Below, piece after piece: positions 24,742 to 64,000 of a stretch of DNA of 64,000 nt. A program made the translations under genes and the position numbers. The notes beneath the pieces are model-generated. The model did not search any database. It saw only the letters and a program-made list of their open reading frames with translations, and was not told the DNA's origin. Within the stretch, counting starts at the first letter, position 1. Every line of letters starts with the position of its first letter. This DNA comes from Diprion similis (taxonomy: Eukaryota; Arthropoda; Insecta; Hymenoptera; Diprionidae): the NCBI RefSeq assembly GCF_021155765.1, contig NC_060116.1, forward strand, positions 13,144,001 through 13,208,000, given 5' to 3'.

Positions 24742-27700
24742 ATGTCTGCGAAGATACATATTAACATATTTTATTGCGCGCTGCAATTGAATGCAGCGTT
24801 TCTCATCAGCCTTGCTGAGCCTCAATGCAATCCTCAAACCGTCGTCCACGACACGACTACCATCTTTGAATTCGACCAGGAACTCGGAATTTGCAGGTGA
24901 GATACACTTCTGGGTCACACATATTGTGTTCAGACAGATCTGAGATGGTAAATTTTTTAATTGTATAATCCCTTCAGGGATGACCAATTTGAGTGTCGAA
25001 ACGGTGAATGCATCGATGATCAATTTCTGTGCGACGGAAGAGCCGACTGTTCGGATCAGAGCGACGAGACTCGGTCCGAATGCTCAAAGCCAGAACTGAT
25101 TTGTCCGAGGCGATCGTATCGCTGCGATTACGGTGCCTGCGTCCACGAAAATGCGGTTTGCAACGGCGTCCGGGATTGCCTCGACAACAGCGATGAACTC
25201 CTTGCAGAGTGTCCAAGACCTTCGTTGAAACGCAGGCGTCTGATTTTCTCGAGATTTTCTGACGAAAGGTACGATCATTTGCTGCTACATGTTGTGGGAT
25301 GACAGTGTTTCGGTTCTTGTGGTCAAATATGTCATCGGCTCGAAATTTCAATTAACCGTGAGACTGCCCAATAGTGTGTCTATATTTTAAATATAATCTA
25401 TATTAAGTTCCCATCAGACGTAAAGGGAAAAATTTAAAAGTTGTAGTTTTGCATAAGACATGGATGCGGGGTTTTTGGGGTCACTGATAACGAATCTGTA
25501 ATCAGATTTTTGAACTTTAAGATGGAGGATAAAAATCCAAAAAGTCACTCTACGCAACCATTTTGGATCCACCATTATGAATTTTGAAATTTCGAGTTCA
25601 GATTCGAGATCAGCGACGTCAAAAACCCCTGAGTACAAAGGATTGATAATTCACTCCACATCGCCTATATTTAGATTTTTCGGTGGCTTAAAGGTTAAGA
25701 AGGAAAGGATTCCTGATCCATTGTTTCCATTGTTCGCACATTCGAAATGAGTAGTAATGATTTTATCGCGTACTAGCGATCTCGCAGTAGCCGCTGAATA
25801 ATCTGTGATCACTATCTAGCGATCAAGAAAAAACGCCAGCGCAACGCAAGATTCCGCGCGGAACCAGGGATCGAATAAGAGGAAGGACGCCGGTCTTACC
25901 TGGAGGCCAGACAGGAATTTCGAGGCCATTGAGACCGTCAACATCCCAAACCCCGATCAGCGATGTCAATCCATTGATATCACTGATGTACTCGTTCTGC
26001 ATTGTGCCGCCGCAGCCTCTAAATGGACGATGGAGGCTTCATAGAAGATTTTGTCAGGGTGACGAAGATTGCGATATTCCTCAGGGTGTCGCGTTGAAGC
26101 CTGGTAGCCAGCTATTGTACTCCTGTGATGCGGAATTTAGAGTCAAAGGAAACACCGACGTTTTTTGTGGATCCGGAGGAAAGTGGTCGCGAATTCCAGT
26201 CTGCATAGGTAGGTACTTCGACTATATAATCTGGTCTCGCGAATGCACGAAGAAGAGACCGAGGACTTGTGAGCTCATTGTTTTCGGCTCTGGCTCATAG
26301 TTTGTTTCTATATGAGCTAATCATTTCATTAACAACGAGGACACATTTCAGCTAGCACATGCACTCCCTTGAACTCGGTTTCAAGGGCAGCTACTTGTTC
26401 CCGTTTTGGGGAACGCGTCAGCTGCTTGGCCCCCATTCTTCCACTCACAAGAGCGAAGGTTACATGCCGGGTAAATTACGGATTGGAATCGCAACCTGTG
26501 CCGACCCTCGTTGAACAGGATGTCGAATGCAATCAAAACGGAAGGTGGGAGCCGGAGCCCATTACGTGCCAACCAAGTATGACGTTAATTAAAAACTGCT
26601 GACGTAGCTCTCTTAATTTTTTTACCCATCGCAATTCTCTGTTACGATTTCAGTTTGTGGTGTGGAAAATCGTTCTGGACAGAAACGGGTTACAGTTGAC
26701 GGGGTCTCCGTAGAAGCTGGGGGTTTTCCTTGGCACGCGAATCTTTGGAAAGAAATCGTAACCGCCAGAGGATCCGAGCTCGAGTTCCGGTGCAGTGCGA
26801 CCATTGTTCAGCCCAACTTCGTGCTCACCGCAGCTCACTGTGTCCTCGACGAAATATCAGGGGTACAAGAAGATCCTACGGTTTTGCGGGTCACCGCTGG
26901 AAATATTTATCGAGATCCAAATGATATACCAACCGTTCCGTGGATCGTTCAGAAGGTTGTCATGATCCGTTTCACACGCTCCCTGAACATTTCTTAATGC
27001 CCAAATCGCCTGTTTACTTAATAGTGCTTAATTTTGATTCGGCAGGTAAAAAACGTGTATAGATATTGCGAGTACTATGGCCTGGTGCACAGCTACGCCT
27101 CGGACATAGCTCTGATCGAGCTGTCGCAACCTTTTGAGACATCGGCTGTAATCCTTCCCGCTTGTCTAGACGTCTCCAGTCAAAGTGAACAAAATTTCAA
27201 ACTCGGTGTTGTAGGAAAGATCGATGGATTCGGTAGAAATTCTATTAAAGAATCTAGTCCGATGCTTCAAACTCTGAAAGTCAGTCATGTCTCCAACAGT
27301 GAGTGCAGAACGCCGTACAAAGGATTTGGGAACGAAGTGGTAGTCAACAATGATGAGTTTTGCGGTGCTTATTCTAACGGTAAGAACATTGCATACATGC
27401 GTGTCTTGATCTCAATTATGGATATCACGCAAGTGTGAAAGGAACAGATGATACAAGGAATCCAAATTTAACTTTCTTAATTTCAGATACGACTGTCTGT
27501 GGCTGGGACACGGGGGGTGGGTTGGTGGTAGAAAAAGACGGACTCTGGCATCTGATGGGAATTTACAGCGTGGGCCTTCGCCTTTCGGCTCCGACAACCG
27601 GCACAAATTGTCGTGACAATCCATACTCGCTATACACGAAGATATCCGCCTACATGCCGTGGATTCAGGACGTTTTCTTCCAATTGGAGCGATACAAGTC

Positions 27701-61555: not shown

Positions 61556-64000
61556 ATGACGGCAATATTCGACGTTAAATGTGCCGCGGTTTTGACTTTC
61601 GTTTATGGTGAGTGATTGAGTCATGATTTTGAGTGTAGTGGATACAGATAGTTGTGTACGATGCAATTCGATGCACATATAAAGCGGATTATCATCCTTG
61701 TAAAGTCTTTTGTCATTTCCGAATTCAACCTGCTGCGTCGCAGTAAATGGGAGAAGAATCAATTTTCTCAGGTTATAACCAAATCATTTTTAATAATGGA
61801 GTTTAATGAAAATTGTGTTGAATTTTAAATCGAACAATTTCCTCACAGCGCTGTAAAGTTGTGGCAACATGCCGATGAAGTTCATTGCTCGAAAGCGAAT
61901 TCGTTTTCTAAATATCACTGTCGCTGAAGACTGAAGAATAGATTTTCCCTTCAGGCAGCATTCATATTTTCTTCATTGAAAGCAAATCAGACAAGACTTG
62001 CTTTATTTAATAGCTCAATATACGTATAGGGATAATAAAAACCGGTTCTTTCTCAATTTCGATGTAGTTAATAATATGGTTTATTCCTTCTATATACATA
62101 TATCTAAGTGCATTAATGATACGTGTTTGTTAACCTTGCGATCTATCGCCGTTAAAGGTCACTGAAAAATTTCAACAAAGTTGATACGATAAGGAATGTT
62201 TCTCAATGTAATAAAGTCTCAACAAAGATTCATGACACGACACGGTTACGCGGACACCGTTTATCCTTGACTAGTAAGATTCTCAGGAATATCAATCACA
62301 GGAAAATGTTCGTTTTCTTCTACGGTCAGGGAGTTCTCCTAATCGCTTTTACTAGTACTAACTGAAAACACTGTACGAGTACAAGGAATGGATAAGCCGG
62401 GAATGTTTTTGATATTGCTTGGTAATCCTCCCATCCTCTTCCTAACTCGTACGATTAATATAACTCTGGAGCTAAAAATAAGCTGATTTTTATAAGATTA
62501 TAACCCAGATAATTACCATCCGACGCACGTCATGCGAGTGAAACCGCAGACTTTATACAGACAGTTGTAACGGCGATGCGAAGGAAGTTACCTCAAGTGT
62601 GAGCATATTCAGTCGGATTATCACATGTGCAAAGACACAGTACAAAGGAAATGTGAAATTGAGTAGATAAAGAATTATTTTGTCACTCCGATAAAACATT
62701 GACTATAAATAACGGTGCCCGATGCAATAAAAGATTTGAAAAAATATGACGTTTGACAAATAGGTCGTTAATTTTCTCTTTAATTGTAAAGTATGAATGC
62801 ACATAGCATATGATTGCAATGGCATGTTTCAATTAAATATGATGCAATCGAAAGTAACGATCAAGATACATATTTGAAAAATAGATCGACAATTTTCTTT
62901 AAATACGATCAGTCTTCAATGTTATAAAATTTATATGCTAGATTCAAACAATGCGTTCAGAGCTTACGAGTGTCACCAGTGTTACGATTTTTTTCACTTA
63001 CTGTTTGTTGCATGATAAAAAATACATATTAAAAACTTCTGAAACGCATTCTTAATCAATTATTGAAACTATTTGTTTTCGGGTGGCATTTCTCGGCGCC
63101 TAGTCCTCTTCGTATTCGATAACGTTCAAGAAGTCGTTGGAGATTCGCTACGGAACGATGATTTCGAAAATAATTGCGGGTAAGTGGATATCAGAATTCG
63201 ATTCGAAGATTTATCCGGTCCATAACACACAACTATGCAGACTAATTCGTCAGCCAAAATACGGATTTTACTATTTTATCACATCATGTGTCGTCATCTA
63301 ATTCATACATCTTAACTGCTGTCCACTCACTACGGAAAAACATAATTGTACATTATTTGAAATGCCATCATCATTCCAAACAGTGGTGGAGCCAATCACA
63401 CGACTACGCTCGAGTCGGCCATCCGTTGGAAAAGAGAAACGGAAACGAGTGGCCTAAGACGACCGTCGCCTTGTCCGGTGCCACCGCAGCCAAGTAACGG
63501 CCAGTGGAAGCTTCATCGAACACTTTGTGACAGCAACAGGGAATGCGATGTTGCTCAAGGTCTTCATCTCGATCCTGGTAGCCAGCTGGTATATACCTGC
63601 AGACCCAACTACAGGATAAAAGGGAGTACTGACGTCTTCTGCGGAGTCAGGGGAACATGGTCGGAAATTCCTGAGTGTATTGGTGAGTCCAATCTTAATA
63701 AAATCTTATGCAAATAGATTTTAACATAAAAGTGACGCAGCATTAGAGCAGTTGCAGCCAATGAATCGGACGGACATGAATCTTAATCAAATGCTGTTTC
63801 AGAGATAAAATGCGACGCTTTGAACTCCCCGTCGACGATCGCTTCATGCTATAATTTGGGCAAGTTGGTGAGCTGCGACACCGCGGTTTCTCCGGGTATA
63901 CGAGCCCAAGTATCTTGTCGCCAGGGATACAGGATGGACACGAGTTCCTTAACGAGTCGCAGAGATATCATCGTGTGCACTTCGAACGGAACGTGGGAAC
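61556..64000 (+). CDS. Copy F: 5' part of a sixth ModSP/HP14-like protease, LDLa exon missing
   Basis: Partial, cut by the window end. Exons: 61556-61607, 63104-63179, 63384-63682, and 63803 to beyond 64000. The first two exons give a signal peptide closely related to those of D and E, ending in ...NNCG. The next in-frame exon is already the CCP exon ([16 protein letters not shown]...), followed by the start of the CCP-like exon (EIKCDALNSPSTIASC). The LDLa exon found between these positions in D and E is absent: I see no LDLa sequence in the 63180-63383 intron, and the GG/T phase joins correctly without it. The first intron (61608-63103) is about 1.5 kb of noncoding AT-rich DNA. Confidence 0.7.

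Follow-up and report, generated by a model that had tools for sequence, protein, structure and literature searches.

A 64,000-nucleotide (nt) stretch of the Diprion similis genome (NC_060116.1, positions 13,144,001 to 13,208,000; the window) carries a tandem array of five genes, A to E, and the start of a sixth, F, predicted to encode relatives of the proteases ModSP and HP14. From A to E, LDLa, Sushi, Wonton and three protease exons are followed by Sushi, Wonton and, except in D, three more protease exons, giving the order LDLa-Sushi-Wonton-protease, hinge, Sushi-Wonton(-protease). An earlier note on this DNA had described such a doubled array, and tblastn, splice chains and Pfam bear it out. 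With gene A exon peptides as tblastn queries, modules from LDLa onward recur in order on the plus strand from A to E, and no match lies upstream of 24742 at an E value of 1e-3. The genes are as follows, in window positions.

24742..30117, plus strand: gene A, 12 exons, 1159 amino acids (aa); signal peptide, two LDLa, Sushi, Wonton, first serine protease domain (SP1), hinge, Sushi, Wonton, second serine protease domain (SP2)
32456..38906, plus strand: gene B, 12 exons, 1330 aa from ATG 32456; module order as in gene A
40758..47174, plus strand: gene C, 12 exons, 1280 aa; GC donor at the SP1-to-hinge junction
49358..53535, plus strand: gene D from its LDLa exon, 675 aa without the 5' exon; one LDLa, Sushi, Wonton, SP1, hinge, Sushi, Wonton, new stop
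56300..60869, plus strand: gene E from its LDLa exon, 1056 aa without the 5' exon; three LDLa, Sushi, Wonton, SP1, hinge, Sushi, Wonton, SP2
63472..63999, plus strand: gene F, Sushi and Wonton exons found by tblastn and cut by the window end

Exons were chained with a splice scorer limited to GT donors; junctions were then read and chains translated. Each spliced chain from A to E contains a single stop, at its end. Pfam Trypsin covers two separate regions of A, B, C and E and a single one of D, and Pfam Sushi and LDLa are present in all five genes. The LDLa counts from A to E are 2, 2, 2, 1 and 3; further ones may lie in unseen 5' exons of D and E. The Pfam scan had no Wonton model, and the name is given here by module order and cysteine count; six cysteines are kept in all 20 Sushi and Wonton modules of A to E, including the ten Wonton modules. 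The best PDB sequence matches of the second gene A head are factor X-like proteases and thrombin, with MASP-1 and MASP-2 also among the best 60 of 440. Gene D indeed lacks its second protease, as the earlier note had it: the gene ends at a new stop at 53535 because the donor after the second Wonton is lost, and remnants of the protease persist near 53545-53629 as 30- to 82-base-pair (bp) matches to the other genes, corresponding to the start of a deleted exon. An AATAAA polyadenylation signal, previously reported after A, B, C and E, lies within 400 nt of the end of all five genes, D included. The count of five complete genes holds only for A, B and C, the genes whose signal exons tblastn recovered; in D and E, neither a start codon nor a signal peptide was found. 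By eye, a short conserved exon with a phase-2 donor and no start codon precedes the LDLa exon in D, E and F, ending in GC followed by GTgagt or GTaagt.

49202-49277: short conserved exon-like segment, gene D
56143-56218: short conserved exon-like segment, gene E
to 63179: short conserved exon-like segment, gene F

We also observed that the first heads of A, B and C (hereafter A1, B1 and C1, with second heads A2, B2 and so on) share a poor donor, AAG/GTTGT, at 26955, 34795 and 43200, where the exact exon end is uncertain. The corresponding donor in D1, E1 and the second heads lies two codons later.

The two halves of each gene meet at the junction between SP1 and the hinge. All five junctions lie at the very coordinates proposed before, are in phase 2 and keep a single frame open along the whole gene. 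The splice scorer's best phase-compatible pairs are 27724/27904 in A, 36225/36341 in B, 52514/52663 in D and 58917/59099 in E; the C junction, 44268/44443, requires a GC-AG intron.

27725..27903, plus strand: junction intron of A (179 nt); the donor GTAAGC overlaps an in-frame TAA; hinge frame open, ATG at 27740
36226..36340, plus strand: junction intron of B (115 nt); the donor overlaps TAA, and an in-frame stop precedes the hinge exon by 5 nt
44269..44442, plus strand: junction intron of C (174 nt); the GC donor GCAAGT is without TAA, and an in-frame stop precedes the hinge exon by 5 nt
52515..52662, plus strand: junction intron of D (148 nt); the donor CAG/GTAAGT overlaps TAA, and an in-frame stop precedes the hinge exon by 38 nt
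58918..59098, plus strand: junction intron of E (181 nt); the weak donor GTAATC overlaps TAA, and an in-frame stop precedes the hinge exon by 5 nt

In B, C, D and E, in-frame stops 5 to 38 nt upstream of the hinge exon mean that its frame can be entered only by splicing. A doubled chain produced by in-frame splicing is likely, given the shared phase, this mode of frame entry in four of five genes, the in-frame hinge repeats and the absence of a conserved second start; the weak donors of A, C and E count against it. If the second halves were instead separate genes, each with its own promoter and start, a start exon should precede the hinge. We scanned for ATG segments that combine a hydrophobic stretch with a phase-2 donor: B and C contain none, D has only pieces of SP1, and the candidates in A and E are unconserved. 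In gene E, hydrophobic open reading frames (ORFs) exist but require unconserved donors, and in gene A, an in-frame ORF from ATG 27740 has a hydrophobic start and runs into the hinge. The earlier statement that no new signal peptide precedes the second half therefore stands for B, C and D and not for A or E. The gene A frame speaks for separate genes; with only 115 to 181 nt between SP1 and the hinge and read-in barred by stops in the other four genes, we find that arrangement highly improbable.

A stronger alternative is that the genes produce single-headed ModSP-like proteins by alternative splicing, the SP1 "donor" being mainly a stop codon. The products would be LDLa plus the first block, ending at the TAA, or LDLa spliced straight to the hinge, giving LDLa-hinge-second block. 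Indeed, the head-1 cassette (1377-1488 nt) is a multiple of three between phase-2 introns in all five genes, the form that skips it is open to the end in all five, and the frame is kept whether the product has head 1 only, head 2 only or both. The junction donor of A, B, D and E overlaps an in-frame TAA four residues past the last SP1 cysteine, which is where a one-headed protein would end; the second heads end three to eight residues past the matching cysteine. Head-1-only products of A and B would have 645 and 647 aa, as long as known ModSPs (about 628 and 632 aa). Most junction donors are weak, ranking 32 (B), 46 (E), 49 (A) and 50 (C) among 50 array donors. The D donor, however, ranks first, and gene C keeps its GCAAGT donor although it has no TAA. 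Moreover, the base before the TAA position is G in all five genes even though the encoded residue differs (V, M, M, R and T), as a donor requires, and doubled proteins of the beetle Tenebrio provide a precedent for one chain (PMC11172050). The TAA overlap alone is no proof of regulation, since a phase-2 GTAA donor always yields such a stop when the intron is retained. We regard a choice between single heads as unlikely.

The junction acceptors rank 8 in A, 21 in B, 38 in C, 41 in E and 42 in D. AATAAA or ATTAAA occurs in none of the five junction introns, where about 1.4 would be expected, which is weak evidence. The site has a donor without a stop in C and a stop with a poorer donor in E; the donor may have arisen over an ancestral stop codon when two neighboring units fused. 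The hinge acceptor and the LDLa-to-Sushi acceptor look alike by eye in D and E, but a common origin of the two is not supported: their mean identity of 0.301 falls within the 0.249-0.355 of other acceptor classes, and only phase and exon order match.

The hinges that follow the junction contain no cysteine in any of the five genes.

27904..28147, plus strand: A hinge, 81 aa, 73% Ser/Thr/Pro, no Cys, 6-bp repeat
36341..37070, plus strand: B hinge, 243 aa, 39-bp (13-aa) in-frame repeat, 14.6 copies at 36378-36946
44443..45040, plus strand: C hinge, 199 aa, 9-bp repeat, only 29% Ser/Thr/Pro
52663..52723, plus strand: D hinge, 20 aa
59099..59207, plus strand: E hinge, 36 aa

The repeat periods of A, B and C are 6, 39 and 9 bp, and the repeats are unrelated, a sign of fast hinge turnover. 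There is no stop in 579 hinge codons, and none inside any chain, whereas 27 to 46 nonsense changes would be expected in each gene if 0.3 neutral changes per site are assumed.

By residues, four of the nine protease heads look catalytically complete (A2, B2, D1 and E1), never two in one gene, and the other five have lost or altered catalytic-site residues. Chymotrypsin numbering was assigned by homology, with positions 16 and 189 taken from an alignment to a factor X-like chain. A1 (T195, W193) and B1 (Y57, T195, W193) appear dead by this measure, as do both heads of gene C (K57 and L195 in C1, K57 and I195 in C2). E2 keeps His, Asp and Ser but has E193 and S197, a combination likely to impair catalysis. 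W193 is common to A1, B1 and C1, and E193 to C2 and E2, so the losses are partly inherited. The lack of a gene with two complete heads is not statistically significant: by hand count, 48 of the 126 placements of four complete heads among nine give this result. Cys1 and Cys122 are kept in all nine heads, so an activated head should stay tethered. Residue 189 is Ala or Thr in every head (Ala in A2 and B2), and the P1 residue is Leu in D1 and E1 and Thr in A2 and B2. D1 and E1 thus combine, by their residues, a complete triad, a non-tryptic pocket and cleavage after Leu; A1, B1, C1 and C2 lack the triad. Both C1 and C2 have K57 and lack Cys191 and Cys220, through convergence or exchange between heads, and the 1280-codon frame of gene C is still open with H57 and S195 missing from both heads.

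Part of the array might be decaying pseudogene sequence. Dead heads, the truncated D, weak donors and the missing starts of D and E would fit decay, as would the ratios of nonsynonymous to synonymous change (dN/dS) for the gene C proteases, which are 0.42-0.64 with A, B or E (unsaturated pairs) versus 0.21-0.36 for other pairs. All chains are nevertheless open, the Sushi and Wonton cysteines are intact throughout, and C1 and C2 each dropped both partners of the Cys191-Cys220 pair rather than one. Decay is hardly probable at all and, to our minds, the least likely of the readings considered here.

First and second copies separate in trees of the protease (100/100), Wonton (96/96) and Sushi (95/94) modules, and one doubling therefore preceded the array copies. 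The head tree has no outgroup and was rooted at its midpoint, a design that does not tell which head is older. Within the first halves, A, B and C separate from D and E at 100/100, and a grouping of C with E is rejected (approximately unbiased test, p-AU 0.0006). The Wonton of gene F groups with D and E (88/91). The second halves are arranged differently: a four-row tree places A and B against C and E at 98/98, and for the second-half Sushi-Wonton, D with E is weakly rejected (p-AU 0.04), with B and D joined at 86/82, which is not firm. Groups for the topology tests were chosen after the trees were seen.

In pooled pairs, fourfold-site agreement between A/B/C and D or E is 18-34% in SP1 exons and 45-71% in second-half modules, where agreement within A, B and C is 54-69%; in the first Sushi and Wonton, it is intermediate (40-48%). 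First and second halves differ at fourfold sites in all six pairs (Fisher p 0.011 to 1.8e-6; the pairs are not independent). In the five first-half introns, no A/B/C pair with D or E exceeds a z score of 1.5. The second-half Sushi-Wonton intron of D, by contrast, matches A (z 16.7) and B (z 22.8) and does not match E (z 0.5), and at the 3' end of SP1, D is nearer to A/B/C than to E. The E junction intron matches B (z 7.9) and C (z 4.1), for the other three second-half introns of E, z against A, B or C lies only between -0.7 and 2.8, and the A junction intron matches no other copy. Taken together, these comparisons argue strongly that D carries an A/B/C-type tail on an anciently divergent first half, exchanged near the hinge; a similar origin for the tail of E is suggested more weakly. 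Either unequal crossing-over or gene conversion, acting close to where SP1 ends, could have produced the exchange.

On balance, and with moderate confidence, we favor the interpretation that the array encodes ModSP/HP14-like proteins with the Sushi-Wonton-protease block doubled on one chain and at most one complete head, the doubling having occurred once and the tails having been swapped later. The frames, phases, residues, trees and exchange on which it builds are features of the DNA itself. Transcripts would be spliced from the end of SP1 over the short intron into the cysteine-free hinge, joining the second block to the first, and the products of D and E would presumably be secreted. A role of the array proteins in immunity is likewise presumed. 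By analogy with HP14, the LDLa modules may bring the protein to a recognition complex. No more than one head per molecule, the second in A and B and the first in D and E, would be a zymogen with a complete catalytic site and non-tryptic specificity, and clustering would activate it. Its partner, whether a pseudo-protease, impaired or lost, could act as a binding or regulatory module, and gene C could supply an all-dead cofactor or decoy. After a single doubling before the copies arose, exchange near the hinge would have moved second halves between copies.

Several points weigh against this interpretation. The junction donors are mostly weak, a stop codon sits in four genes where a one-headed protein would end, the head-1-only products of A and B would have the length of known ModSPs, and the hydrophobic ORF of gene A reaches the hinge. 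For D, E and F, neither tblastn with the A, B and C signal exons nor a hydrophobicity scan turned up a start codon or a signal peptide, which for D and E counts on the same side. Finally, B2-D2 dN/dS is 1.17 for Wonton and 0.75 for Sushi, and the D tail may be relaxed. A broader possibility, which we hold to be rather doubtful, is that each gene yields head-1-only, head-2-only or two-headed proteins through the stop-overlapping, often weak donor and the frame-neutral cassette, while recombination close to the hinge redistributes live and dead heads among the copies. If true, the array would be a family of matched proteases and decoys in which one set of parts gives rise to several sorts of immune initiator.

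The surroundings of the array look ordinary. Of 197 upstream ORFs of at least 45 aa, eight were scanned; four had no match, and the others, all on the plus strand, are segments of a protein kinase (2026-2457), the N terminus of a hormone-sensitive lipase (10944-11327), an alpha/beta hydrolase (12256-12618) and a pseudouridine synthase (20499-20870). NF-kB-like sites occur at chance level in the window (5 found versus 4.74 expected).

The module order LDLa, Sushi, six-cysteine Wonton and apparently non-tryptic, chymotrypsin-fold protease is shared with ModSP, HP14, MSP and bee SP49. HP14 and bee SP49 are described with four to five LDLa, Sushi, Wonton and one protease (PMC1761132), in agreement with the single protease domain that the earlier note had given for this family. 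The array differs in its doubled block, with two protease domains in A, B, C and E if the junction is spliced and one in D, and in the one to three LDLa found. MSP and bee SP49 share P1 Leu with D1 and E1, whereas A2 and B2 have P1 Thr. HP14 contacts its recognition protein via LDLa (PMC7215089), and ModSP is reported to autoactivate with PGRP-SA, GNBP1 and peptidoglycan, with P1 Leu preferred (PMC10732536). ModSP-like and Nudel domain orders are also given in PMC10036332. Nudel, too, has LDLa and two protease-like domains, one of them degenerate (PMC10036332, PMC11172050), but it has a trypsin-type first head, LDLa between the heads and no Sushi or Wonton, and it acts in egg patterning; in the array, Sushi-Wonton rather than LDLa lies between the heads, and residue 189 is not of the trypsin type.

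The closest published parallel comes from beetles. The earlier note had expected a new architecture, but a doubled order of two Sushi modules with a serine protease and two with a protease homolog, related to ModSP, is already known from Tenebrio (PMC11172050); the leading LDLa is not described in the accessible part of that account. It lists seven Tenebrio polypeptidases, six with Sushi modules (T. molitor pSerP448, 900, 333, 382, pSerPH608 and pSerP614), and cites T. castaneum SP14; the majority of the Sushi polypeptidases fall in the clade of MSP. Like the array proteins, they have two (or three) protease-like domains per chain, each usually behind two Sushi modules, and at most one head with an intact triad. 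The same Sushi pair before each head is seen in A, B, C and E, and the two domains, read from a single ORF in Tenebrio, share one ORF here only if the junction is spliced. Unlike the array proteins, the Tenebrio proteins, of 837-1347 aa, are without LDLa. Four of the six have an active first head and a dead second one, the reverse of A and B, and as far as that account is accessible, it describes neither tail exchange between copies nor a dead first head with an intact second. A full-text literature search, with subscription papers, supplements and protein databases outside its reach, found no LDLa-bearing doubled ModSP, and no doubled ModSP was found in the accessible literature on the Tribolium immune system, bee immunity and N. 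lugens.

The array thus appears to be a variant close to ModSP and to the polypeptidases of beetles, one in which live and dead heads are unusually arranged and a tail has been exchanged. Proteases of the ModSP type, which trigger the Toll and melanization cascades, are described with one protease domain in the literature accessible to us. If the doubled reading is true, a cascade initiator in this family would have gained built-in pseudo-protease partners and would diversify by exchanging tails.

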